Source: Lichina pygmaea
Taxonomy: Eukaryota; Ascomycota; Lichinomycetes; Lichinales; Lichinaceae
Assembly: GCA_963422465.1 (NCBI GenBank)
Contig: OY730173.1
Location: 1,364,001 to 1,428,000, forward strand
DNA length: 64,000 bases
Reading direction: 5' to 3'
The stretch's first letter is position 1; each line of letters opens with the position of its first letter. Positions 2,295 through 44,882 of this stretch are shown here, one piece after another. The position numbers and the translations under genes are program-made. Below the pieces are notes generated by a model. That model had not been told where the DNA came from, did no database searches, and saw only the letters and a list, made by a program, of their open reading frames with translations.

Positions 2295-4502
2295 CGTCGT
2301 CGTCGTCCGCATCCCGCTCTGCGATCCTCTTGTACTCGGCGCCGCGGTCACCGTTGGCTCCACCTACGCCGCGCCGGCCTTGCTTGCCACCGACCGTGCG
2401 CGAGATCCATCCTCTGACGCGCTCGGCCGCGCCGTTTGTCTGGGAAGCGGCCGGCCCGCCGTCCGCCGCCGGCGTTGGCGGTTCAACGTCGAGGGCGTGA
2501 CCGTCATCACCACCACCACCAACCAGGGGCCGGGGAAGATCCATCGACGGCGGTGGCGAACCATAACGCCTCAAGGACGCGCGCTCGGGATCGGTAACCG
2601 GGATCGTGGCAGGGGTGGCGGCGGCGGTGGCGTCGCCGAAGAGCGCGTCCATGTCCTCGAGCCGGACGCCGGACGTCTCGGGGTACAGGAAGTATACTGC
2701 GGAGAGGCGACGTCAGCAACGAGGGCCCGCTCTCTCTCTCTCTCGGGAGCTCGCGTCGGCTCCCAGGGACGACGACTTGAGGGACATCAACACCCGCTTT
2801 ATGCTCACCGACGACGAAACTGACGGCGCAGAAGAAGGCATGCACGAGGTACAGCCGCCATTTGATCCACTGCTGCAGCACCGGCGTGACCTCGCCCACC
2901 AGCCAGTTGAAGGCCCAGTTCGTGGCCGTGCTGATGCTGGCACCCTTGGCCCGGATGCTCAGCGGAAGGATCTCGGGCGGGTAGAGCCACGGGATCGGAC
3001 CCCACGAGTAGCCAAAGGCGGCGTTGTAGATCATGACGAAGACGACGACGAGCAACGGCGTCTGACGAATGTCGATGTAGATGAAGTACGAGATCAGGGA
3101 CAGCGAGACGGCCGTCATGATGGCGCCCGACATCAGGATCAGGCGGCGGCCCCAGCGATCGACCAGATACCACGGCGGCACCGTGGACAGGAGGTAGGTG
3201 ATGCCGTTGATGCCCGTCATCAGGATCGCGTCCCGGCCCACCCAGCCGGCCTGCTCGAAGACCAGCGGCGCGTAGTACGAGATGACGTTGATGCCGTTCA
3301 GCTGCGCGAACGCCTGGGCCGACATGGCGATCATGATGCGCTTGGGGTAGCGTCTGAACATGTCACGGTAGGACCGTTCGCCCTCCTGCCGCTGCAGCAG
3401 CACGCCCATCTTGATGTCGCGGTACTCGTCGCGAGCCTTGGGATGGTGGACGTCACCGCCGCCGTACAGGTTCGCGATGACGGTCATGCCTTCCTCGTCG
3501 TGGTCGTTGTCCAAGAGCCACCTGGGCCGGGACCGGAGGTCGTCAGCAGACAGGGTAGGACGGGCGAGCGGGAGGGGTGCGCGCGCGGGCACACGCGCCG
3601 GCGCAGAGCCACATTACCTCGGTGACTCGGAGATGACGAGGCTCCCCGCGGCCAGCAGCGCGCCCATGACGCACTGCATCAGGAGCGGCAGGCGCCAGGC
3701 GTAGTCGCTTTCGATGTAGCTGCAGAAGTAGTCGACCCAGACGCTGGTGGCGTAGCCGGCGACGTTGCCGGTGAACTCGATGCACGCGAGCTTGCCGCGG
3801 TTGTGCGGCGGCGAGATCTCGGACTGGTACACGGGTACGATGGTCGACAGGGCCCCGACTCCGACCCCGGCGATGATGCGGCCCAACAGCATCATCGGCA
3901 TGCCGGTCGCGAAGGTCTGCAGGGCCCCGCCCACGAGGAAGATCATGGACCCGTAGAGGATCGTTCTGCGGCGCCCGATGATGTCCCCGACGCGGCCGAC
4001 GGTGAGCGACGCGACAAAGGCCCCGATCTCGAGGATGGCGACCATCGTCCCGATCTCGGCCCTGCTCGGCTGCTTCATGTAGTCCTTGAAATAGGCACCC
4101 CTGGGTCACGAACGTGAGCGTGCCGCACCTGCCGTCTGCGAATGCTCCATCCAGGGTCTTGTTCCTCGAACGTACGTGATGATGCCCGACATGACGCCCT
4201 GGTCGTACCCGAAAAGAAACACCCCCAACGACACGAAGACGCTCGTGAAGTACCTTCGAGGGCGCTCGCTCGTCAGCCAGATCAACCGACCAGCGATGCC
4301 GTCGCATCATCGACCAAGGGCAAGGAAGTTCTTACAGCAACGGCTTGCCGACCAGACCATGGCCTGCTTTCGCCTGGCCTCCGGCCATGACAGCGGCCAA
4401 GCTCTGCTCGAAACGGGACACCCGTCGCGGCCGCGGGACGGGTATCGATATCTGCTCTCTATCGAGGCCAGCGCGGGTTCTGTGGCGCCGGAGAGCCGCG
4501 CG

Positions 4503-32040: not shown

Positions 32041-32335
32041 TAGTGCTGAGTTATCAACACTTTTTGCCATCATGTTTTTTCCTTACAAGGTTTTTTTACA
32101 GTTTTTAATAAGGTTGACGTGTGAAAGCAGCTACAGGTGAAGTGTTACTGCTGGGAACAGGTGTGTAGGCACTGGGAATAGGTATCAAATTGATGAAAGA
32201 AAACAAAAAGAAGCTGTCAAGAGTATATTGGCATGTTGTCCAAGCCTATGTCCACATCTATATCACTGCCTTCTTGTTGAGCCAAAGTCTCCAAGGCCAC
32301 CACACATGTCTTGAGATTGTTGAAGTGCTTGATTT

Positions 32336-34130
32336 TTTTTTGATTTGATTCTTACACTGTTTGTAGCTTTACAGCCATGCAGATCTTCCAGCTAATAGTG
32401 AACTTCTTCAGAAAACCTTTAAAGGAATAAAAACTGAAGACAGGGAGGTGACTAGAAAGTGTAGCAAAAGGAAATCTTATAGTGTCTGGTAGGAAAAGCT
32501 TCTAGATGTTGGAGTGTGAATAGTGAAGTTTGAAAGCCAGATTAAATTGGTTTAGTCTTTTCAAAGACATAAACCAGTACAGAAACTTCTGTAGAAGCTC
32601 TGGGTTTGAAATAATAGTAGTGAAATCTTGGGGGTTAAAGAGAGCATGTTGTCTTTGACTTGAGTAGAGAGAGCATGAAAAGGTAATATACTTTACTGCC
32701 TCTTCTGCTTGACCACACATGCATAGGGGGGTAGGAAAGTCAGAGACTCCAGCTCTGAAAAGAAAACTTGCTAGACCAATTCTCCCAGTTCTGGTTTGCA
32801 GTAGTAGACTTGCCTCAGCTTTCTGTAGCTCTTTGTAGAGCTTTAGGTTGTTGTCGTGAGGTTTTTGGCAAAACACCTGCCATCCAGCATAGCTTTTTCT
32901 TTTCTTCTCCTCCCATTGGTTTTCCCACTCTTTAGTAAAGAGTATTTGTAGTTCTTTCTTTGAACTAGCCTGGTTAGTAGTTATTTGACTTAACCAAGTG
33001 AACTTCCAATTAGACCACAGTTGTACTATGCCAGAACATAGTGTAGAGTTGGCACCCCCCCACAGGGTCTCTACCACACTTTCCCACAGTCCCGAGGTCT
33101 CTTGCACTCTGCTGTACGTGCTCACCCCTGGGATCCTGCTTCGGAGTGCTGGGTCACCAGCCCAGAGCCCACGCTCCAACTGTAGTTTACTTCCTGAGCT
33201 TGTTGTTTGCAGCCTAAGCCTGCACTCTGTACAAACTGGCATGCGCATCTGTTCTCTCAGGCCATATAGACAGTCTTGTAGTAGGCCCAGGCTCTAACTC
33301 CATCACTGCTATTATATGCCACACCTCGCAGTTGTTAACTGTTTTGTGTTACCTTCGCAGATCTCTTGTACAAAGGCTGACCATGCCTTGCAGGCCTTAC
33401 AGACCCTGCAGGCCGTGCCAGCACCTGCAGGACTGCTTTTCCAGCCCACTAACCAAGTAGGGAGGAGTTCTTCTTAGTCCACTGTTGCCTGTGGGGCTCT
33501 GGTTGCACCTGTTGGCCCACTGGATAACCTAGTCCCCTGGCCCCAGATTGTGGATTGTACAAAGAGACTTTGTGGCAAAGCCTTAGGCAAAACCATCAAG
33601 CCAGCACTTTGGCTATCACACAGCTCTTAGGCACTGGAGTGGTGATGTCTCCTTGTACAACCACTCTCCTTCTTTAACAGGTGGTCTCTGTTTGATTAAC
33701 AACACTGCGGTGCCAAGGCCACTCCCCCCCTAGCAGATCCTCACATGTTAGCTGGAGACTCTGCTAGAAGGGTGACATAATGAGAACTCCTCTCGACTAC
33801 TCCAGAGGTGCCCTATCAGACACCTAGACTTCACATTCACCAGCTGTGGGGCTGGCTTCAGGCTGTAGTGTACACGGTAGTCGTCTGTCAGGTGGTTTTC
33901 ATCTCCCAAGCTTGGTCGCAGTCCTCTGTTCTGCTGTAGCTGTTTCACAGGGGTGTCCAGGATGCCTGCGCAACACCTCCGGTGGCCTGTCACTCTGCAA
34001 CACCAGCAGCTTGACTGGTGACTTGATTAGCTCTCAGTGCAGCAACTACAAGCAGCCTGGGAGGCCACCCGCCATCGACTGCCCTGAGGTTCCCAGCCTG
34101 CACCACGTGGAGGTTCGAGTTGTTGCAGGC
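32336..34130 (-). mobile_element. Chimeric LINE: 1.1-kb module X fused to a LINE 3' end (copy A)
   Basis: Minus-strand chimera. 33015-34130 is module X (1116 bp, starts GGCCTGCAACAACTCG and ends ACTGTGG). It is joined directly to the last part of LINE ORF2 and 3' UTR (32336-33014), which ends in a CAAATCAAAAAA tail. The ORF2 piece (32502-33014) keeps the FCQKPH, SFLFRAG and CMCG...H...C segments. I could not find a duplication flanking it; it borders the outer element on the left and Gypsy 2 on the right, so a deletion may have accompanied or followed the insertion. Confidence 0.72.
33015..34130 (-). repeat. Module X, copy A
   Basis: Matches 42027-43143 over its whole length with mostly transition differences. 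Not LINE-like. No ORF on its sense strand that I trust, but a frame on the opposite strand is partly kept in both copies (MPEHSVELAPPHRVSTTLSH). Origin unknown. Confidence 0.8.
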
Positions 34131-35785
34131 CTTCTTCCAGGTAGAGTCTCTATTACTGGAATATGTTGACAATCACTAACAACTTCTTGTCATAAACATT
34201 ATACCTGAGTTCTGGGCCAGAGAACTTTCTTGATCAGTATGTGACAGAGTGTAAGCAGTTTTCAGTGTCTGGTTGACACAAGTAAGATCTAAGTACTTGG
34301 TCTGAGGTATCTGTCTCCATGTACCCCAATCTCCAGCTACATCTTTCTCTTTCTCCCAGCCACTCCCAGAGAGGAAAAATGTAAAACAGCTGAGCCAACC
34401 AGAAGCTCAGAGAGAATCAGAGGAAGCTGTCCAGAAGTACAAATTCTTGGGGCAAGATCAACAAATAATAAGGGAAAAGTATCAGCCAACCCTTTCAAGA
34501 TCTTTGAAGATAAGATGTCTACATGAAAGACTCAAAGCTCACACTTCTCCAGTATAACATGCAAAAAAGTCAATCAGTCCAAGAGCTACTTCTAGCAACC
34601 TCAGTTCTTCAAGAGGTGGATATTATTGCACTTCAAGAACTCTGGAAAAACCCTCACCTGGAGATAAGCACCTCTACTATTTTCTCTTCTTTTCTTTCTT
34701 TTTACTGTTCAGAGATTGGTAGAACACTTTTTCTTATTAATAAAAACCTGAAACTCTCTTCTCTTCATCTTACTTTCTGGAGTAAAGACTTTATTTCTCT
34801 TGAAATCTACTTGGAAAACTCTTCTACTTCTCTTTGGGTGCATAATCTTTACTTTACTCTATCAAGTCAAGAAAACTATACAGAGGCATCAGAAGCTCTT
34901 CTCTGTTTACTCCAAAATACTTTACAAGTACAAGGACAACATATTCTTCTCACAGATTCAAACCTCCACCACCCAGACTGGTCAAAGAAAAGAAGACTGT
35001 ACTCTGACACTGCAAACAAGTTCCAAGGTCTAATGAAAGATTTAAATCTGGATTTAGCTATTGCATCTTTTACTCCCACCAGAGCAAGATCTCTTTCAGA
35101 AAAACCATGTTCTGCAATTGATCTGTCTTTTATTTCTTCTTCTCTTCTAACTCCCTGATTTTCTCTAAAGTGGCTCTCCAGTTCTTTCATAGGTCTGACC
35201 ACAGATCTATACTAACTAGCCTGGACCTGGATCCTCCAAGGAAAACCTGGAAGCCAGAAAGGAACTGGAAGACACTGGACTCAAACCTTGCAAGAGTAGA
35301 GTGTGAGAAGCTACAGCTACCTTCCCACTTTCAAGACAAAGATGAAGTGGATAAGTACTTGGAGTATCTGGACAACTTTCTCCAAGAAGTGGCAAGCAAA
35401 TGTACACAGCTCCAGAAGCAATCTGGTCACTCAGTTCCCTGGTGGAACCAAGACATCTAAAACAAGGTTAGAGAGGAAAGAAGAGTAAGAAGACAAGTTC
35501 TCAGAGGACAGGCATCCCAAGAAGACCTTGAGCAAGCAACTAAGAACAAGAAAAAAGCAGTCAGAGAGGGAAAGCAGACCACCCTCAGACAACAAGTCCA
35601 TGAGCTAGCCAGTTCTTCAAAATTCTGGAAGCTTGCAAAGTGGGGAAAAACAAAAGCCAACAGGACTCCTGATCTTCCCCTAGTCCCAGATTTGGAAACT
35701 CAAGAAGGACTAGCTAAAACTTTTGAAGAGAAGACAAGCATTCTCAGCCCAGTTCTTCCCCAAAGGACTTGTTCCAGAACCAATT

Positions 35786-35998
35786 TTTATTTTTATTTTA
35801 TTTGATTCTTACACTGGTAGTAGCTTTACAGCCATGCAGATCTTCTAGCTAATAGTGAACTCCTTCAGAAAACCTTTGAAGAGATAAAAACTGAAGGCAG
35901 GGTGTGACTAGGGAATGTAACAAAAGAAATCTTGAAGTGTCTGGTAAGAGAAGAGAATCTAGGTATTGGATTGGGAATAGTGGAGTTTGAAAGCTAGA
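35786..35998 (-). mobile_element. 213-bp LINE 3' fragment inserted in the LINE
   Basis: Minus-strand 3' end of the same LINE-A family, with the A-rich tail at the left. It is bounded by a 13-bp duplication TCCAGAACCAATT (35773-35785 and 35999-36011), a normal product of target-primed reverse transcription with strong 5' truncation. Confidence 0.85.
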
Positions 35999-37237
35999 TC
36001 CAGAACCAATTACAGAGAGTTCCCAGAGTACTCCAGAAATCCAGCTCTCTCAGGAAGTTACTACTGAAGAAGTGGAACAAATCCTGAACAAAAAGAAACC
36101 TTTCACAGCAGGGGGAAAAGATAAGCTGCCAAATGGATTTCTGAAAGCTCTGGGTGCCAAGTTCTGCCAAGCTATAGCTGTTCTCACATCAATATGCTGG
36201 AGACTAGAATACTTTCCAGAGAGGTTCAAGAATGTAAAGACAGTCTGTCTAAGAAAACCTGGTAAAGGATACTATAACCAAGCTAAAGTCTGGCACCCTA
36301 TAGCTCTGCTAAACACAACTGGCAAGCTGATGGAAGCTATTACAGCAACCAGACTAAGCAAGGTAGCAGAAGAAGCTAGACTTTTGCCAGAAATCCAGAT
36401 AGGCTTCAGGAAAGGAAGATCAACTGAATCAGCACTCTTCCTACTAACTTCCCAAGTGGAAAAAGTCTGGAAGAAAGGCATGGTTGCATCTCTACTTTCT
36501 CTGGATATCTCAGAAGTCTATGACAGAGTTCTACCTAAGATCCTCCAACAAATCCTAGAGAGAAAAGAAATTTCTCTCTGGCTATCTTCCTGGATTCTCT
36601 CTTTCTGCACCAGTTGTTCTACCACTCTTGTGTTTGATGACTCTGAGTCTTCTGCTATTCCTATTCACTGTGGAGTTCCCCAAGGTTCCCCTTTATCTCC
36701 TATTCTGTTTCTATTTTACATCTCTGAACTTCATGAAACTGTACACTCTCCTTCCACTGGTGTTTCTGCTCTGGGATTTGCAGATGATACAAATCTGCTT
36801 GTATTTGGACACTCTCTAAAAAGTAACCTTCTGAAGTTGAAGAACACACACCTTAAATGTCTATCATAGGTTGCAAGACATGGAATAGTCTTCTCTCCTG
36901 AGAAATATAAAATACTTCATTTTTCCAGAAGAAGATCAGACAATCTTCAGCTTAAGCTCAGACTGGGGAATGTGATTCTAAGACTAAAAGAAGAAGTGCG
37001 AGTATTAGGAGTGTACCTGGATACAAAACTCCACTGGCATAAGCACCAGAGAATTATTCTTCAAAAAGCTCAGAAAGCACTTTCCTCTCTCTAGAACTTC
37101 ATATTCTACTTGGGGTTTTCCAGTCCTCACATCATGTCTTGTGTATACTGCAATACTCAGATCTTTACTGAGTTATGCTGTGGGGATCTGGTTCAATCCT
37201 CTAAGAAAATCTTCTAATATCTCTTCTCTTAGCACAT

Positions 37238-37676
37238 GGGGTGGCATGGTGTAGTGGGAAGCTGGTGAGAGTTTCCCACTACATGGCACCCATGACCCGG
37301 AACTAGTGGTGTCAGGCCTGGAGAACCTGACTAAACTAGTCGTCAGTTCGAATCTGACCCACCCCACATTCTGCCACAAAAAACCCCCGAGATTCATAGA
37401 ACTTGTCTAAGATGTACTTCTCGCAAGATGTATGAAAGCTCTCAAGAAATAGCTCACCCAATATCCGTCAAGATCCACAAACTCTCATTACTGTGGTTTT
37501 CCTATTTCCCCTACAGGGTTTGGGGTTTTCCCACGGTACGTACACTACAAACCACGGGGTGTACAGTAAATACGTGAGGCTCCTGAGTCAAGTCTACCAG
37601 AGACAAAAATTCCTTCAAGAAGTTCTGCATGGCTTAACAGCCGAATCAGTGTAAGAATCAAATCAAATCAAAAAAA
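37238..37676 (+). mobile_element. tRNA-derived SINE with a LINE-type 3' tail
   Basis: 439 bp between perfect 13-bp duplications TCTCTTAGCACAT (37225-37237 and 37677-37689). The head (37238-37366) folds like a tRNA: acceptor arms GGGGTGG and CCACCCC pair perfectly, a box A-like GGTGTAGTGGGAAGC follows, and a box B/T-arm GTCAGTTCGAATCTGAC precedes the acceptor 3' arm. A body of about 255 bp follows. The last 55 bp (TCTGCATGGCT, then AATCAGTGTAAGAATCAAAT) match the 3' ends of the LINEs in this window. The related LINE copy at about 43770-43790 lacks the insert, giving an empty site. The SINE keeps CpG sites, unlike its host. Confidence 0.88.
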
Positions 37677-38620
37677 TCTCTTAGCACATTCCAGAACAAA
37701 TGCCTGAGACTTATTGGAGGTGCCTTCAAAGCCACTCCATCTTTCTTATTAGAGAGTGAGCTTTTTCTTTTACCTCTAGATCTCTATTTCAAATTTTGCA
37801 CAGCCTGTTTTCTTTTTTCTATTCAAACCTTCTCTCTGAAAACACTTCTGGACAATATCTTTTCCAATATCTCCCACTATACCTCTTCTGTGAAGAAACC
37901 TTTAAAGGAATCCTTAACTATCTCCCTCTATTGGAAGTTCACTTGGTTAAACTAATTAGCTACTAACCAGACTAGTTCAAAGAAAGAACTACAGAAACTC
38001 TTTGTTAAAGAGTGGGAAAACTAATGGGAGGAGAAGAAAAGAAGAAGGTACTCTGGGTGGCAGGTGTTTTGTCAAAAGCCTCACCACAACAACCTGAAGC
38101 TTTTCAAAAAGCTACAGAAAGCTGAGGCAAGTCTACTACTACAAACCAGAACTGGGAGAATTGGCCTGGTAAGTTTTCTATTCAGAGCTGGAGTTCCAGA
38201 TTTTCCTATCTCTTTATGTGTCTGTGGTCAAGCAGAAGAGACAGTGAAACATATCACCTCTTCATGCTCTTTTTATTCAAGTCAAAGACAGCAAGCTCTT
38301 TTTAATTCTCAAGATTTCACTTCTATTATTTCAAACCCAGAGCTTCTACAGAAGTTTCTATACTGGTTCATGTTTTTGAAAAGACTGAACCAGGTTAATC
38401 TGGCTTTCAAACTCTACTATTCACACTCTAATATCTAGAAGTTTTCTTTCTACCAGTCACTACAAGATTTCCTTTTGCTACATCCTCTAGTCACCCCCAG
38501 TCTTCAGTTTTTATTCCTCTAAAGGTTTTCTGAAGAAAATCACTCTTAGCTAGAAGATCTGCATGGCTGAAAAGCTACTATCAGTGTAAGAATCAAATAA
38601 AAAATAAATAAAAATAAAAA

Positions 38621-41600
38621 ATCTGTCTCCATGATGATCCACTGTTCAGGATCAAATGATGCCAGTATAGGTGTGGAGGTGAACTTCTTTTTCAGCTCCT
38701 GGAACACTCTCTCTTGGCTATTCCTCTATGTGAAGATTTCTCTTTTTTTTGTGAGTTCAGTCAAGAGTGCTACTATTCTCAAGTACTTCTTAATGAATCA
38801 TCAGTAGAAGTTTGCAAATTCTAGGAAGGATTGGACTTCTTTGAGGTTCTTGGGTGTCAGCCAGTCTTGTACTGCTACTGTCTTTGAGTTGTCTATACAG
38901 ATTCCTTCTGTTGTTAGGATTGATTCCAAGTACTCTACTTTCTTTATGTGGAACACACTTTTATCAAGGTGTAACCTTATTCCTACTTCTTGGAGTGCAT
39001 GTAGAATCTTCTTAGTATACTCTTTGTACTTCTCCAGAGTTCTATTAGTGTAGACCAAGGTATTGTTGATATAAGCAGTAACAAATATATCCAGGTATTG
39101 TCAGAGGATAGTGTTAATAAGTGATTGAAATATCACCAGTACATTCATAAGACTGAATAGTATAACAGTATACTTGTAATACCTGTACCTTGTACAAAAG
39201 ACTGTCTTCTATTCTTCACTATCTTTCATCCTAACCAGGTTGAAAGCACCTCAGATGTTGAACTTGGTGAACCACTTGGCTTCTTGGATTCAGTCCTGGA
39301 TTTCCAATATCAACAGTAGTGGGTAGTGATTCTTAATCATGATCATGTTAAGCTGCCAGTAGTTGACACACAGTCAAAGCTTGCTGTTCTTTTTTGGTAC
39401 AAATAATATTGGGTATCCAGCTGGTGATATTGAAGATCTTATGAACTTTTTCACTAGGTTCTTGTCCAGGTAGTTTCTTAAGACCTTGAGCTCTTTTGCT
39501 GATAGAGTGTAGATAGGACTGTGTGTGGATTTCTTTCTGTCTTCCAGTGGAATTTTGTGATCCTAATCTTGGTGTTCTGGTAGTGTTATGACTACTTCCT
39601 CACCAAACATCTCCTGGTAGTCTTTATACTCACTTGGCAGCTGTGGTACCTGAGTCTTGCCCACAGTGCCATGTGTAGTGCAAAGTTGCTGGTTTTGGAG
39701 CTTCATCCAAGCCATATAGACTTGCCCTTGTCAGTGGTACTTCTTCCACTCTGTGTATAAGATCTCTTTGATTCTCACTTTCTCTGGCTCTGCTCAGGTT
39801 GCCAGGTTTTTCCTTGGAAAGACTAGGTGCCTTCTTTTCCAGTCAATCCTTGAGTTTTGACTTTCCAACTACAGAAGACTCAATATAACTTTGTGTGGTA
39901 TCTGGACCAAGTTGAATTCTTCTGATCTGATTGTTGTACTGTTAACACACAGTTGTAGGTTTTTGGTCTTCTTTGTTACTTGTCCTTAGTTTTTGGAGAG
40001 TGGTGTTCCATCCACTACTGTTAGTTGGTATAGATTCCTCTTCTCTCAGGTTGGGATTTTGTGCTTCTGGGTGAAACTTTCTGATATGAAGTTGCTGGTA
40101 GCTCTGGAGTCAATCATAGTGTTTGTTAGGTGCCTGTTAACTCTCATCTTGATGTAAAAATACAGACTGCAGACTGTTATGTCAAGGCTCTGCTTAACTT
40201 CTTCTTTCCAGAGTGTTGTCTTGCCTGCTCTTCCAACTCTGGATTTGAAGAGCACTGCTGGTTTTTTGAACAACCAAGACTCTGGGCCTGGTGTTCTGCT
40301 GCATGTCTTCTGCATTTCTCAGTGAAGTATAGCTCCCATGTGTCTTCTCCACAGTTGTCACATTTTTTCTCTTACTGGCTTAGCTGGTAGTTGATGCTCC
40401 AGACTTTCTTGTAGTATTCTGGGCCAGGGAAATATCTTCTTCTCCTTTTCTCTAGAAAGTGCTTCTTGCAGTGGTGGTCTTCACACTCTTTCCAATAGGG
40501 GTATCTACAGGCTGGTGTTGTAGTCTGGTGGAGGTTCACTTGTGCTGTGATGTCTTGGGGCTGTGAGATACTGATAGTGTTGTCCACTCATCATGTCACT
40601 CTTTCTTCACCAGTCTCCAACAAGATCATGTTCTGTTGTCAGAGTATTGGTGTCTTGGGAACTGGTGGTATACTGGCTATGTCAATCTTGTAGTCTGTTG
40701 TGTTGAATTCAGAGATTAGGTTATTCTCCCAATAGATCTTGTCAATCTGGTCTTGGACTGTGTGCAGGTTCTCCAGTGATCTCTGCAGATTGTTCTCCAG
40801 TCTTTTGATGTGCTGTTTGAGATTGTCCTCCTGTTCAAGAAGTGTTACTTCTGGCTGGTTCATGGGTAGTGTGCCTCTGGGAGCTCTTGGTGGCTTCTGA
40901 ATACTCTTGTCTTTCCAGGTGCCAGTGGCATTCAACTGCTTACTCTTGCTTTCTTCTTTTCTCTTGCTTCAGCAGTTGGCTGCAAGGTGGCCTACCTTCT
41001 GGCAATTGTAACACTTCTGTGTTTCCTTCTTCTTGGTTGCCTGTGGTGTTGTTGCATCAACCTCCATGGGTACCAGGCTGTATTTGTCCTGTACCAGCAC
41101 TGTCTTCTTAACCTATAGTCTCACATACTTGCCTTACTTCTTGAGTTCTTGTTTAAATTGTCAGTTGTTGATGTGTACTGCTGTATTGATCATGTTCTCA
41201 AGGTTGGTGGGTTGGTCTCTGTGTGTGATGTTGTCCTTGACTTGTTTCTTGAGAGCTTGGTAGAACAGTGCTGTCAATACACTATCCCTCCACTGTGTTC
41301 TCACTGATAGTTGTTGGAACTTCACCACAAAGTCTGATGCTGACTCTGTCTGCTGTAGTGCTTGGAGCTTTTATTCCACATCTTGTTCCTTGTCAATAAC
41401 TCCAAAAGTCTTCTTCATCTGGGTCTTGAAGATTGAGAAACTTCTGATGATTCCCTGTGTTATAGTTTCCATGTCTGAGGGACTTCCCCTGTTATCAAGG
41501 TAGTCTTGCAGATAGATGTTGAACTATACAAACATTGGTCTGTCCAGGTAGAAGACTGTAAACAGCACCTTCTTCTGTTCTGTCAGGAATTGTGTGGCAT

Positions 41601-41835
41601 TAAACCTATAATAAAGCTCAAGCTAAGAGAAGAACAACTCCAGTCCTTCTTGTGATCTATCATACGTCTTCAGTATACCTACCTTCAACAGCTTTGGAGG
41701 TAAGGTGAGGGTGGTAGTGACAGGTAGTTCCTGGGCTTATGCCTGGAGTGTAGTCTGGGCTTGTCCTACCTGTGAAGAGGTAGGGCTGTGTGGATCTGCT
41801 ATTATATTGAGCTGGTGTCCTATACATTAGAGGCT
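38621..41835 (-). pseudogene. Decayed gag-pol of Gypsy 2
   Basis: Parallel to the pol and gag of the first Gypsy element, with many stops. Recognisable: RT segment with KKILHALQEVGIRLHLDKSV (about 39000), the protease region around 40050-40315 (TMIDSRATSNFISESFTQ, where the catalytic Gly of DSG is now Arg), and gag pieces at 40639-41820. No frame is intact. Confidence 0.75.
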
Positions 41836-42026
41836 GAAACTGTTAAGAGCCAGTCCATGTTCACACAGAATGTGGGTGGTCCACACATCTGGGTAAAGAG
41901 GGCAGGGACTCAATAGATGAATAGCAAGTGGGGTAACTCTCTTGCTATTGTTGTTTGTACTTGTTGTTCAGCCTGGAGAGCTATTCTTCTCAGCTATCTG
42001 GGTTATCTTATATACAGAAGTCTGAG

Positions 42027-43143
42027 GGCCTGCAACAACTCGAACCTCCACGTAGTGCAGGCTGGGAACCTCGGGGCAGTCGATGGTGGGCAGCTTCCCA
42101 GGCTGCTTGTAGTCGCTGCACCAAGAGCTAATCAAGTCACTGGTCAAGCTGCTGGTGTTGCGGAGTGACGGGCCACTGGAGGTGTCACGCAGGCACCCTG
42201 GATGCCCCTGTGAAACAGCTACAGCAGAACAGAGGACTGCGACCAAGCTTGGGAGAGGAAAACCACCTGACAGACAACTACCGTGTACGCTACAGCCTGA
42301 AGCCAGCCTCACAGCTGGTGGATGTGAAGTCTAGGTGTCTGATAGGGCATCTCTGGAGTAGTCGAAAGGAGTTCTCATCATGTCACCCTTCTAGCAGAGT
42401 CTCCAGCTAACGTGTGAGGATCTGCTAGGGGGGGAGTGGCCTTGGCACCGCAGTGTTGTTAATCAAACAGGGACCACCTGTTAAAGAAGGAGAGTGGTCG
42501 TACAAGGAGACATCACCACTCCAGTGCCTAAGGGCTGTGTGATAGCCAAAGTGCTGGCTTGATGGTTTTGCCTAAGACTTTGCCACAAAGTCTCTTCGTA
42601 CAATCCACAATCTGGGGCCAGGGGACTGGGTTATCCAGTGGGCCAACAGGTGCAACCAGGGCTCCACAGGTGACAGCAGACCAAGGAGAACTCCTCCCTA
42701 CTTGGTTAGTGGGCTGGAAAGACAGCCCTGCAGGTGCTGGCACAGCCTGCAGGATCTGTAAGACCTGCGAGGTATGGTCGGCCTTTGTACAAGAGATCTG
42801 TGAAAGTAACACAAAACAGTTAACAACTGCGAGGTGTGGTATATAATAGCAGTGACAGAGGTAGGGCCTGGGCCTACTACGAGACTGTCTATATAGCCTG
42901 AGAGGACAGATGCACATGCCAGTTCGTACAGAGTGCAGGCTTAGGCTGCAAACGACAAGCTCAGGGAGTAAACTACAGTTGGAGTGTGGGCTCTGGGCTG
43001 GTGACCCAGCGCTCTGAAGCAGGATCCCAGAGGTGAGCATGTACAGCGGAGTGCAAGAGACCTCGGGACTGTGGGAAAGTGTGGTAGAGACCCTGTGGGG
43101 GGGTGCCAACTCTACACTATGTTCTGGCATAGTACGACTGTGG
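42027..43143 (+). repeat. Module X, copy B
   Basis: 1117 bp, same start and end as copy A at 33015-34130. Contains GGTATATAATAGC near 42838-42850 and a C/G-rich first half. On the minus strand a 200-codon frame (42528-43130) is open, but with no recognised domain. Confidence 0.82.
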
Positions 43144-43174
43144 CTCTTTCTGCACCAGTTGTTCTACCACTCTT

Positions 43175-44533
43175 GTGTTTGATGACTCTGAGTCTTCTGC
43201 TATTCCTATTCACTGTGGAGTTCCCCAAGGTTCCTCTCTATCTCCTATTCTGTTTCTATTTTATATTTCTGAACTTCATGAAACTGTACCTTCTCCTTCC
43301 ACTGGTGTTTCTGCTCTGGGATTTGCAGATGATACAAATCTGCTTGCATTTGGACACTCTCTAAAAAGCAACCTTCTGAAGTTGAAGAACACACATCTCA
43401 AATGTCTATCATGGGCTGCAAGACATGGAATAGTCTTCTCTCCTGAGAAATATAAAATACTTTATTTTTCCAGAAGAAGATCAGACAATCTTCAGCTTAA
43501 GCTCAGACTGGGGAATGTGATTCTAAGACTAAAAGAAGAAGTGCAAGTATTAGGAGTGTACCTGGATGCAAAACTCCACTGGCATAAGCACCAGAGAATT
43601 ATTCTTCAAAAAGCTCAGAAAGCACTTTCCTCTCTTTCTAGGACTTCATATTCTACTTGGGGTTTCCCAGTCCTCACATCACACCTTGTGTACACTGCAA
43701 TACTCAGATCATTACTGAGTTATGCTGTGGGGATCTGGTTCAATCCTCTAAGAAAATCTTCTAATATCTCTTCTCTTAGCACATTCCAGAACAAATACCT
43801 GAGACTTATTGGAGGTGTCTTCAAAGCCACTCCATCTTTCTTATTAGAGAGTGAGCTTTTTCTTTTACCTCTAGATCTCTATTTCAAATTTTGCACAGCC
43901 TGTTTTCTTTTTTCTATTCAAACCTTCTCTCTGAAAACACTTCTGGACAATATCTTTTCCAATATCTCCCACTATACCTCTTCTGTGAAGAAACCTTTAA
44001 AGGAATCCTTAACTATCTCCCTCTATTGGAAGTTCACTTGGTTAAACTAATTAGCTACTAACCAGGCTAGTTCAAAGAAAGAACTACAGAAACTCTTTGT
44101 TAAAGAGTGGGAAAACTAATGGGAGGAGAAGAAAAGAAGAAGGTACTCTGGGTGGCAGGTGTTTTGTCAAAAGCCTCACCACAACAACCTGAAGCTTTTC
44201 AAAAAGCTACAGAAAGCTGAGGCAAGTCTACTACTACAAACCAGAACTGGGAGAATTGGCCTGGTAAGTTTTCTATTCAGAGCTGGAGTTCCAGATTTTC
44301 CTATCTCTTTATGTGTCTGTGGTCAAGCAGAAGAGACAGTGAAACATATCACCTCTTCATGCTTTTTTTATTCAAGTCAAAGACAGCAAGCTCTTTTTAA
44401 TTCTCAAGATTTCACTTCTATTATTTCAAACCCAGAGCTTCTACAGAAGTTTCTATACTGGTTCATGTTTTTGAAAAGACTGAACCAGGTTAATCTGGCT
44501 TTCAAACTCCACTATTCACACTCTAATATCTAG
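43175..44533 (+). pseudogene. LINE ORF2 3' part in chimera B
   Basis: From the RT region GVPQGSSLSPILFLFYIS and FADDTNLLAFG through IGGVFKATPSFLLESEL to the C-terminal knuckle. Two TAA codons near 44048 and 44117 lie at the same places as in the LINE at 34322, where copy A at 32336 has CAA. Confidence 0.78.
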
Positions 44534-44882
44534 AAGTTTTCTTTCTACCAGTCACTACAAGATTTCCTTTTACTACATCCTCTAGTCACCCCCAGTCTTC
44601 AGTTTTTATTCCTCTAAAGGTTTTCTGAAGAAAATCACTCTTAGCTAGAAGATCTGCATGGCTGAAAAGCTACTATCAGTGTAAGAATCAAATAAAAATA
44701 AAAAAAATACAGGAGTCTGAGAGAGGAGGTTCTCCCCAAGAAGTATCAGCTTTCTGTGTGGTAGAGTTGGTGGAGATAGTTACATCTCTGCCACCTCTGC
44801 CACTAGGTTGGGTGAACATTGTTCTGTGTACCTCTGTACACTTGCTTAGGTTGGCTTGGCTGTTCTGGCCTGAGCCTTAACA

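Follow-up and report, generated by a model that had tools for sequence, protein, structure and literature searches.

A non-coding module with a putative HDV-like ribozyme at its head, joined to LINEs at many points in the genome of Lichina pygmaea

The genome of the ascomycete Lichina pygmaea (32.5 Mb in 8 contigs) carries a family of modules, here called X, that have a fixed 3' end and are joined directly to 5'-truncated long interspersed nuclear elements (LINEs) at many different points. Two copies lie in the stretch of DNA analysed here, referred to as the window, which comprises 64,000 nt of contig OY730173.1 (C5:1364001-1428000). X starts at what looks like the predicted cleavage site of a putative self-cleaving ribozyme of the hepatitis delta virus (HDV) class. 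We consider it probable that the family is a system like the MINE chimeras of Magnaporthe, in which the reverse transcriptase of a LINE would switch to a non-coding, ribozyme-processed X RNA and start copying it from the 3' end. The ribozyme head of X, a motif at the points where the LINE is left (CT^YC, where the caret marks the joint) and the use of several LINE partners are new here.

Copies of X and their joints to LINEs

The two copies of X in the window form a single inverted pair that is 93% complementary over 1120 nt (33015-34134 against 42024-43143), and each is 1117 nt long. Both end in ACTGTGG and continue into LINE sequence of the F1 type. The LINE query used for mapping was a long F1 LINE at 34322-38620, extended by 34300-34321, and on it copy A enters at position 3631 and copy B at 2300; the joints are therefore about 890 bp apart once a short interspersed nuclear element (SINE) of ~440 bp within the query is subtracted. 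In chimera B, X begins at GGCCTG directly after the left target site duplication (TSD), which reads as 15 bp with one mismatch, 12 bp of which are reported by the TSD test. The same test of the flanks detected no TSD for copy A. A first-pass annotation of the window had described the two copies, their common terminus, LINE entry points about 880 bp apart and a 15-bp duplication around chimera B, and these observations are confirmed, apart from the mismatch. The limits of the X copies below were set by inverted-pair comparison, whole-genome matching and LINE alignment.

33015-34131, minus strand: X copy A (X1 subfamily), 1117 nt
32329-33014, minus strand: 5'-truncated F1-type LINE, 3' part of chimera A, joint ...ACTGTGG^TCTAATT
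42027-43143, plus strand: X copy B (X1 subfamily), 1117 nt
43144-44707, plus strand: 5'-truncated F1-type LINE, 3' part of chimera B, joint ...ACTGTGG^CTCTTTC
42012-42026, plus strand: left TSD of chimera B, atacagAagtctgag
44707-44721, plus strand: right TSD of chimera B, atacagGagtctgag, with one mismatch; its initial A could be part of the A-rich tail

Across the genome, X is made up of two subfamilies, X1 and X2, the latter ~85% identical to the former. The 3'-end pattern of X1 occurs at 121 places and that of X2 at 137, while the 5' start pattern of both together, with up to 3 mismatches, occurs at 234; the controls, a reversed pattern in the case of X1, gave 0 throughout. The best 40 of 304 candidates from a search with whole X all span at least bases 3-1114 of 1116. 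A complete 5' end is present in 31 of the 39 copies that have a 3' end in a first set of loci that includes the window, and these copies start with GGCCTG in 29 cases and end with ACTGTGG in all 31. The fixity of the 3' end is partly built into this sample, since copies were collected through their 3'-end pattern or as best whole-length matches. Independent support for fixed ends comes from X2, as its ribozyme starts and 3' ends, located by searches independent of each other, are spaced by exactly 1124 nt in 34 of 49 pairs.

Adding 20 copies from a second set of loci brings the number of X 3' ends read to 59, of which 56 pass directly into sense LINE sequence, judged by nucleotide match or, for divergent LINEs, by protein match. 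A homologue spanning the site allowed 54 joints to be mapped, including those of a solo X (L008) and of an X1-X2 fusion (L036), both of which follow CT; the joints L036:1528, L040, L048, L052 and L056 had no covering homologue and were left out. These 54 joints fall on 42 distinct sites. Nine sites are used by two or three copies, and one of them by both X1 and X2 (L004, L051, L043). The LINE partners belong to F1 (including a subfamily at 85-87%), to F2 (~66-74% identical to F1 or among its own branches) and to the GC-rich F3 and F4, which are 67-72% identical in protein. Protein searches with these LINEs gave named relatives that include Histoplasma and Lachnellula, and a LINE frame of 446 aa at L041, without a Pfam match, shares 35.5% identity over 200 aa with the LINE of the window. 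A TSD surrounds the whole chimera in 14 of 31 rows, 13 of which have at most 1.5 kb of downstream DNA. It had been proposed from the window alone that LINE RNA was exchanged for the 3' end of an X RNA by template switching and that many chimeras would combine a fixed X end with variable LINE ends. The variable joints in several LINE families and the whole-chimera TSDs support this proposal, and the outcome that would have spoken against it, X beside one and the same LINE position in every copy, did not occur.

The joints have a strong sequence motif. CT precedes 41 of the 54, compared with a background of 0.107 (binomial P 5e-29, copies taken as independent), and the two bases that follow are CC in 22, TC in 16, CT in 12 and other pairs in 4. 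No microhomology was seen among the joints read: in the LINE the joint is preceded by CT, which does not match the GG at the end of X. Docking of the 3' GG of X on CU of the LINE RNA was considered and dropped: CC should serve equally, yet it stands before only 3 of 54 joints. LINE truncations that lack X gave three usable controls (AG, AA and TG, thus 0/3 CT), too few to lean on.

Three loci depart from the usual arrangement. At L008, a solitary X with a 16-bp TSD interrupts a LINE copy, in a CT^TC context, and by the TSD test it is the only solo X in 41 rows. At L036 (410-2603), X1 runs into an X2 at position 49 of the latter, and this X2 continues into sequence resembling the first open reading frame of a LINE; here either an X2-LINE RNA served as template or two jumps took place within one event. 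At L052 (1803-2700), X is present from base 599 and is joined to 344 nt that match no LINE reference, with a 12-bp TSD (TCCACTTATCTT). This non-LINE part contains GGTAAG...TTTCAG and is perhaps an unspliced host RNA.

X itself is judged non-coding, because the 11 indels between one copy of X1 and one of X2 are mostly not multiples of 3 and the substitutions are spread evenly by phase (50/55/63); a coding X was dropped on these grounds. Energy folding of three copies pairs the terminal ACUGUGG with C(U)ACAGU ~165 nt upstream and places a CUAUG-loop-CAUAG hairpin in the same 3' domain. Differences among 28 X1 copies are found mainly at 83 putative CpG pairs, where 1-76 of 166 CpG columns are changed, with only 0.1-2.0% elsewhere, a pattern characteristic of repeat-directed C-to-T decay. 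Some X1 copies are nearly undecayed and therefore young. The F1 and F2 LINEs (window 34322-44700, L039-L058) are almost free of CpG and X retains many, and young copies of X are found on GC-rich F3 and F4 LINEs and on CpG-poor LINEs alike. Variants other than C-to-T or G-to-A are common to groups of copies: 355A and 594G occur together at L032, L041, L047, L051 and L058, where X is fused to F1-type, F2 and F4 LINEs, which means that several X1 source variants have been active.

X resembles no LINE seen in this genome, and it does not share a 3' end with the LINEs as a SINE of theirs would, for it ends in ACTGTGG while their tails are A-rich. One scan of viral contigs with a 24-base core of X gave 0 matches. 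A tandem or circular source was sought with ACTGTGG N{0,28} GGCCTGCRA, which gave 1 match with a 26-nt spacer, and with a narrower pattern, which gave 0; the single match is not taken as a tandem, since more than 230 X starts predict about that many by chance. One X2 3' end (C1:1636-1662, plus strand), possibly subtelomeric, is 1.6 kb away from where contig C1 ends.

The putative ribozyme head of X and the surroundings of the window copies

An HDV-like ribozyme is predicted at the start of both window copies; that of copy B is decayed and was recognised by alignment.

34017-34131, minus strand: putative HDV-like ribozyme with which X copy A begins; the cleavage site is expected between 34132 and 34131
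42027-42141, plus strand: putative HDV-like ribozyme, decayed, with which X copy B begins

Rfam model RF00094 matches copy A at 34059-34133 over its whole length (model 1-89 of 89) with 28 bits and an E value of 1.1 in 13 kb; copy B has no Rfam match at E ≤5. The same model matches 5 of 9 further loci at the same place with 28.0-38.9 bits, and each match begins 2 nt before GGCCTG, in agreement with the model. Genome-wide there are at least 85 matches at E ≤10 (among the 86 of 1614 candidates that were scored), each spanning model 1-89, the best with 43.9 bits and an E value of 6e-4. X starts, identified by sequence or coordinates, account for 71 of the 85, with the comparison made against 100 of the 137 X2 3' ends; 17 are X1 copies, 49 have an X2 3' end at the right distance, and 5 were recognised in fetched sequence. 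All 20 X2-type starts that were fetched begin at the predicted cleavage site.

The anatomy was read from 36 distinct rows, with the parts named after those of the HDV class, as placed on the Rfam alignment. P1 is formed by GGCCUGC and GCAGGCU with a G.U pair at the cut, P2 by GACUC(G/A)A and U(C/U)GAGUC, and P3 by ACC and GGU; P4 is present, and an invariant GCUAA holds the presumed catalytic C. X thus combines the features looked for in an HDV-like ribozyme, namely a nested double pseudoknot of P1 to P4, a G.U at the cleavage site and a catalytic C in J4/2. In the structure so named, 95.4% of cells are paired, compared with 29.5-34.0% when the strands are slid, and none of 500 shuffles did as well. 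Both sides of a pair have changed in 24 cells, chiefly from G-C to A-U in P2 between X1 and X2 (15 rows), which is compensatory change in the alignment.

Next to copy A lies the F1 LINE that served as query, which carries no X.

34322-38620, plus strand: long X-free LINE of the F1 type, interrupted by a SINE and by a LINE fragment in inverted orientation; its pieces match Pfam Exo_endo_phos_2 and RVT_1

Its TSD, ATCTGTCTCCATG, is found at 34309-34321 and 38621-38633. The SINE is tRNA-like and lies at 37238-37676 on the plus strand with its own TSD, TCTCTTAGCACAT; a relative is present at L049, and both insertions have a CT^TC context. An inverted 3' fragment of the same LINE type is found at 35783-35999 with TSD AATTGGTTCTGGA. 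The degenerate stretch between the chimeras (38634-42011), with a zinc-knuckle-like frame at 40639-40968 on the minus strand, is probably another retroelement.

Template jumping and its alternatives

In the mechanism we favour, X would be a non-coding RNA of ~1.12 kb, with subfamilies X1 and X2, whose 5' end would be produced by the HDV-like ribozyme and whose 3' end would be the closing strand (ACUGUGG) of the folded 3' domain. While RNAs of several LINE families are being reverse transcribed by target priming, the enzyme would leave the LINE RNA, mostly at CU^YC, and resume at the 3' end of X RNA. X would then be copied up to its ribozyme-made 5' end and the insertion completed, giving the order TSD, X, 3' part of the LINE, TSD. 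In rare variants, X RNA may have been primed directly at the target (L008), left for another X (the X1-X2 fusion of L036) or copied after non-LINE sequence in place of a LINE (L052). The sequences themselves show the family, its fixed ends, the variable joints, the TSDs, a ribozyme anatomy supported by compensatory changes, and the motif at the joints; we infer an RNA intermediate, its cleavage, the direction of the jump and processing of the 3' end.

Several points weigh against this account. All RF00094 scores are below the gathering score of 50 bits, and 4 of 14 control genomes also give sub-threshold matches at E ≤10. In two of the five measures of the structure the shuffles equal what was observed, with 171 of 500 doing so for double-changed pairs and 488 of 500 for pair types. 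Only 88.5% of P2 cells are paired, and a P2 pair is broken in most X1 copies, as CpG decay could explain. X is also 5'-truncated in 8 of the 39 copies that have a 3' end, so it is untrue that X is always complete. The CT before joints partly resembles the context of endonuclease nicks as read from 22 TSDs, a doubtful one at L044 included (CT 11, GT 6, other 5). Finally, a free X RNA that ends at ACTGTGG is something we infer from genomic copies.

The resemblance between joints and nicks is central to two improbable alternatives, to which we give equal weight. The fusions could have arisen in two steps and with no template switch if X was target-primed into LINE copies at endonuclease nicks and X-LINE RNAs, later freed by the ribozyme, were retroposed as a unit. 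L008 is exactly the product expected of the first step, as X there lies within a LINE copy and has a 16-bp TSD; such RNAs would be set free by the ribozyme, two or three copies share a joint at each of nine sites, and T at -1 is favoured both at joints (45/54) and at nicks (19/22). Two steps predict solo copies about as common as distinct joints, and random insertion predicts many of them outside LINEs, yet only the one in 41 rows was found, despite 42 distinct joints, which is why formation in one step during LINE integration is favoured. The contexts also diverge in detail, as GT precedes 6 of 22 nicks but none of the 54 joints (Fisher P 3e-4), while the difference is smaller for CT, with 11 of 22 and 41 of 54 (P 0.03), with copies taken as independent and the LINE backgrounds of GT (0.035) and CT (0.107) uncorrected. 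Alternatively, in a one-step variant of template jumping, the endonuclease could nick nascent LINE cDNA or DNA at CT during integration and X RNA be primed there. The CT context common to joints and TSDs fits this, as does CT^TC at the solo X and the two SINE insertions. GT, used at TSDs and never at joints, does not; neither does the base after the cut, which is A at chimera TSDs (ambiguous with the A-rich tail) and a pyrimidine at nearly all joints.

It is scarcely credible that X is the 5' untranslated region of a LINE family whose copies are internal deletions of one parent. HDV-like ribozymes do head the 5' ends of LINEs elsewhere (R2, L1Tc/ingi), but a single fixed X end faces 42 LINE joints in several families, and the 355A/594G sub-lineage of X1 is itself joined to F1-type, F2 and F4 LINEs. 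Template jumping by LINE reverse transcriptase thus remains the preferred explanation, in outline that of the first-pass annotation, to which the ribozyme head, the CT motif, the solo copy and X2 have been added here.

A bolder form of the template-jumping explanation, which we regard as possible but rather unlikely, is that X is a mobile element whose only way of multiplying is to be taken up by LINE reverse transcriptases as their second template. The transcribed forms would be chimeras, or X RNAs in tandem or circular form; the ribozyme would free the 5' end, the 3' domain would set the 3' end, and X would spread by template jumping and not by 3' priming of its own. On this view WEIRD, too, would be such an element and would begin with a ribozyme. 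This reading fits the repeated fusion of several X1 source variants to different LINE families, the young copies in both subfamilies and the near absence of solo X.

Known systems and the meaning of X

The closest known system, as the first-pass annotation had recognised, is MINE, the WEIRD-MGL chimeras of Magnaporthe, in which WEIRD is 1113 nt long and of an origin and function left open in the parts of the report consulted (PMC2104539), which also underlie the comparison that follows. In both systems a non-coding 5' module (1113 nt for WEIRD, 1117 nt for X), usually complete, is fused directly to a 5'-truncated LINE at many points, with TSDs, joint hot spots, a joint motif and an example of a double jump (PMC2104539). 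X shows the arrangement that defines a MINE, a complete non-LINE copy 5' of a truncated LINE at variable joints, and the TSD around the whole chimera (14/31 rows). The motifs differ, being GCC^A/T in MINE, which is not seen here, and CT^YC for X; MINE involves one LINE and one SINE, whereas X is joined to several LINE families, and 31 MINEs in Magnaporthe compare with 258 X 3' ends here (PMC2104539). Solo WEIRD was reported as none found while one solo X is present, and the consulted parts mention no ribozyme for WEIRD, unlike the one predicted in X (PMC2104539). Two published WEIRD primers, the only part of WEIRD compared, match X no better than shuffled primers. A literature search for WEIRD with a ribozyme in Magnaporthe found nothing, and a ribozyme-headed passenger RNA was likewise not found among titles and abstract openings.

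Other systems share single features with X, as far as the sections of the reports consulted extend. Template jumping by R2 reverse transcriptase is biochemically established (PMC8857657), and in Drosophila R2 has jumped to U12 small nuclear RNA and transfer RNA, a kind of template jump that is proposed for X too (PMC3414825). The R2/R1 hybrid SIDEs of Drosophila also join an HDV-like ribozyme 5' end to the 3' end of another LINE; they derive from R2 and spread as set lineages, whereas X is unlike any LINE seen here and has been re-joined at many sites (PMC3414825). HDV-like ribozymes are found at the 5' ends of R2 (PMC3774820) and L1Tc/ingi (PMC4035085), and there, as predicted for X, cleavage defines where the unit inserted by retrotransposition begins, although in those elements the ribozyme sits on the LINE itself and in X on a separate non-coding module. 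Fungal HDV variants are of the same class as X and likewise have an extra base between P2 and P3 (by the Rfam alignment of X), but X lacks a clear loop E and carries G.U where cleavage is predicted, and no retroelement link is stated for them in those sections (PMC5640933). Finally, the U6-L1 chimeras of mammals place a full-length RNA 5' of a truncated LINE in the same orientation with a TSD, as X does; U6 is a small, known housekeeping RNA, while X is long and has two subfamilies (PMC2104539).

A ribozyme at the head of a passenger RNA would give the 5' end of X a mechanism, and the strong CT^YC motif would document in the genome the points at which a LINE reverse transcriptase departs from its template, read from more joints in one genome than the 33 chimeras of the Magnaporthe study. 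If it is true that X spreads only by template jumping, this would be a distinct way of being a transposon, and one that to our knowledge is found in no textbook.

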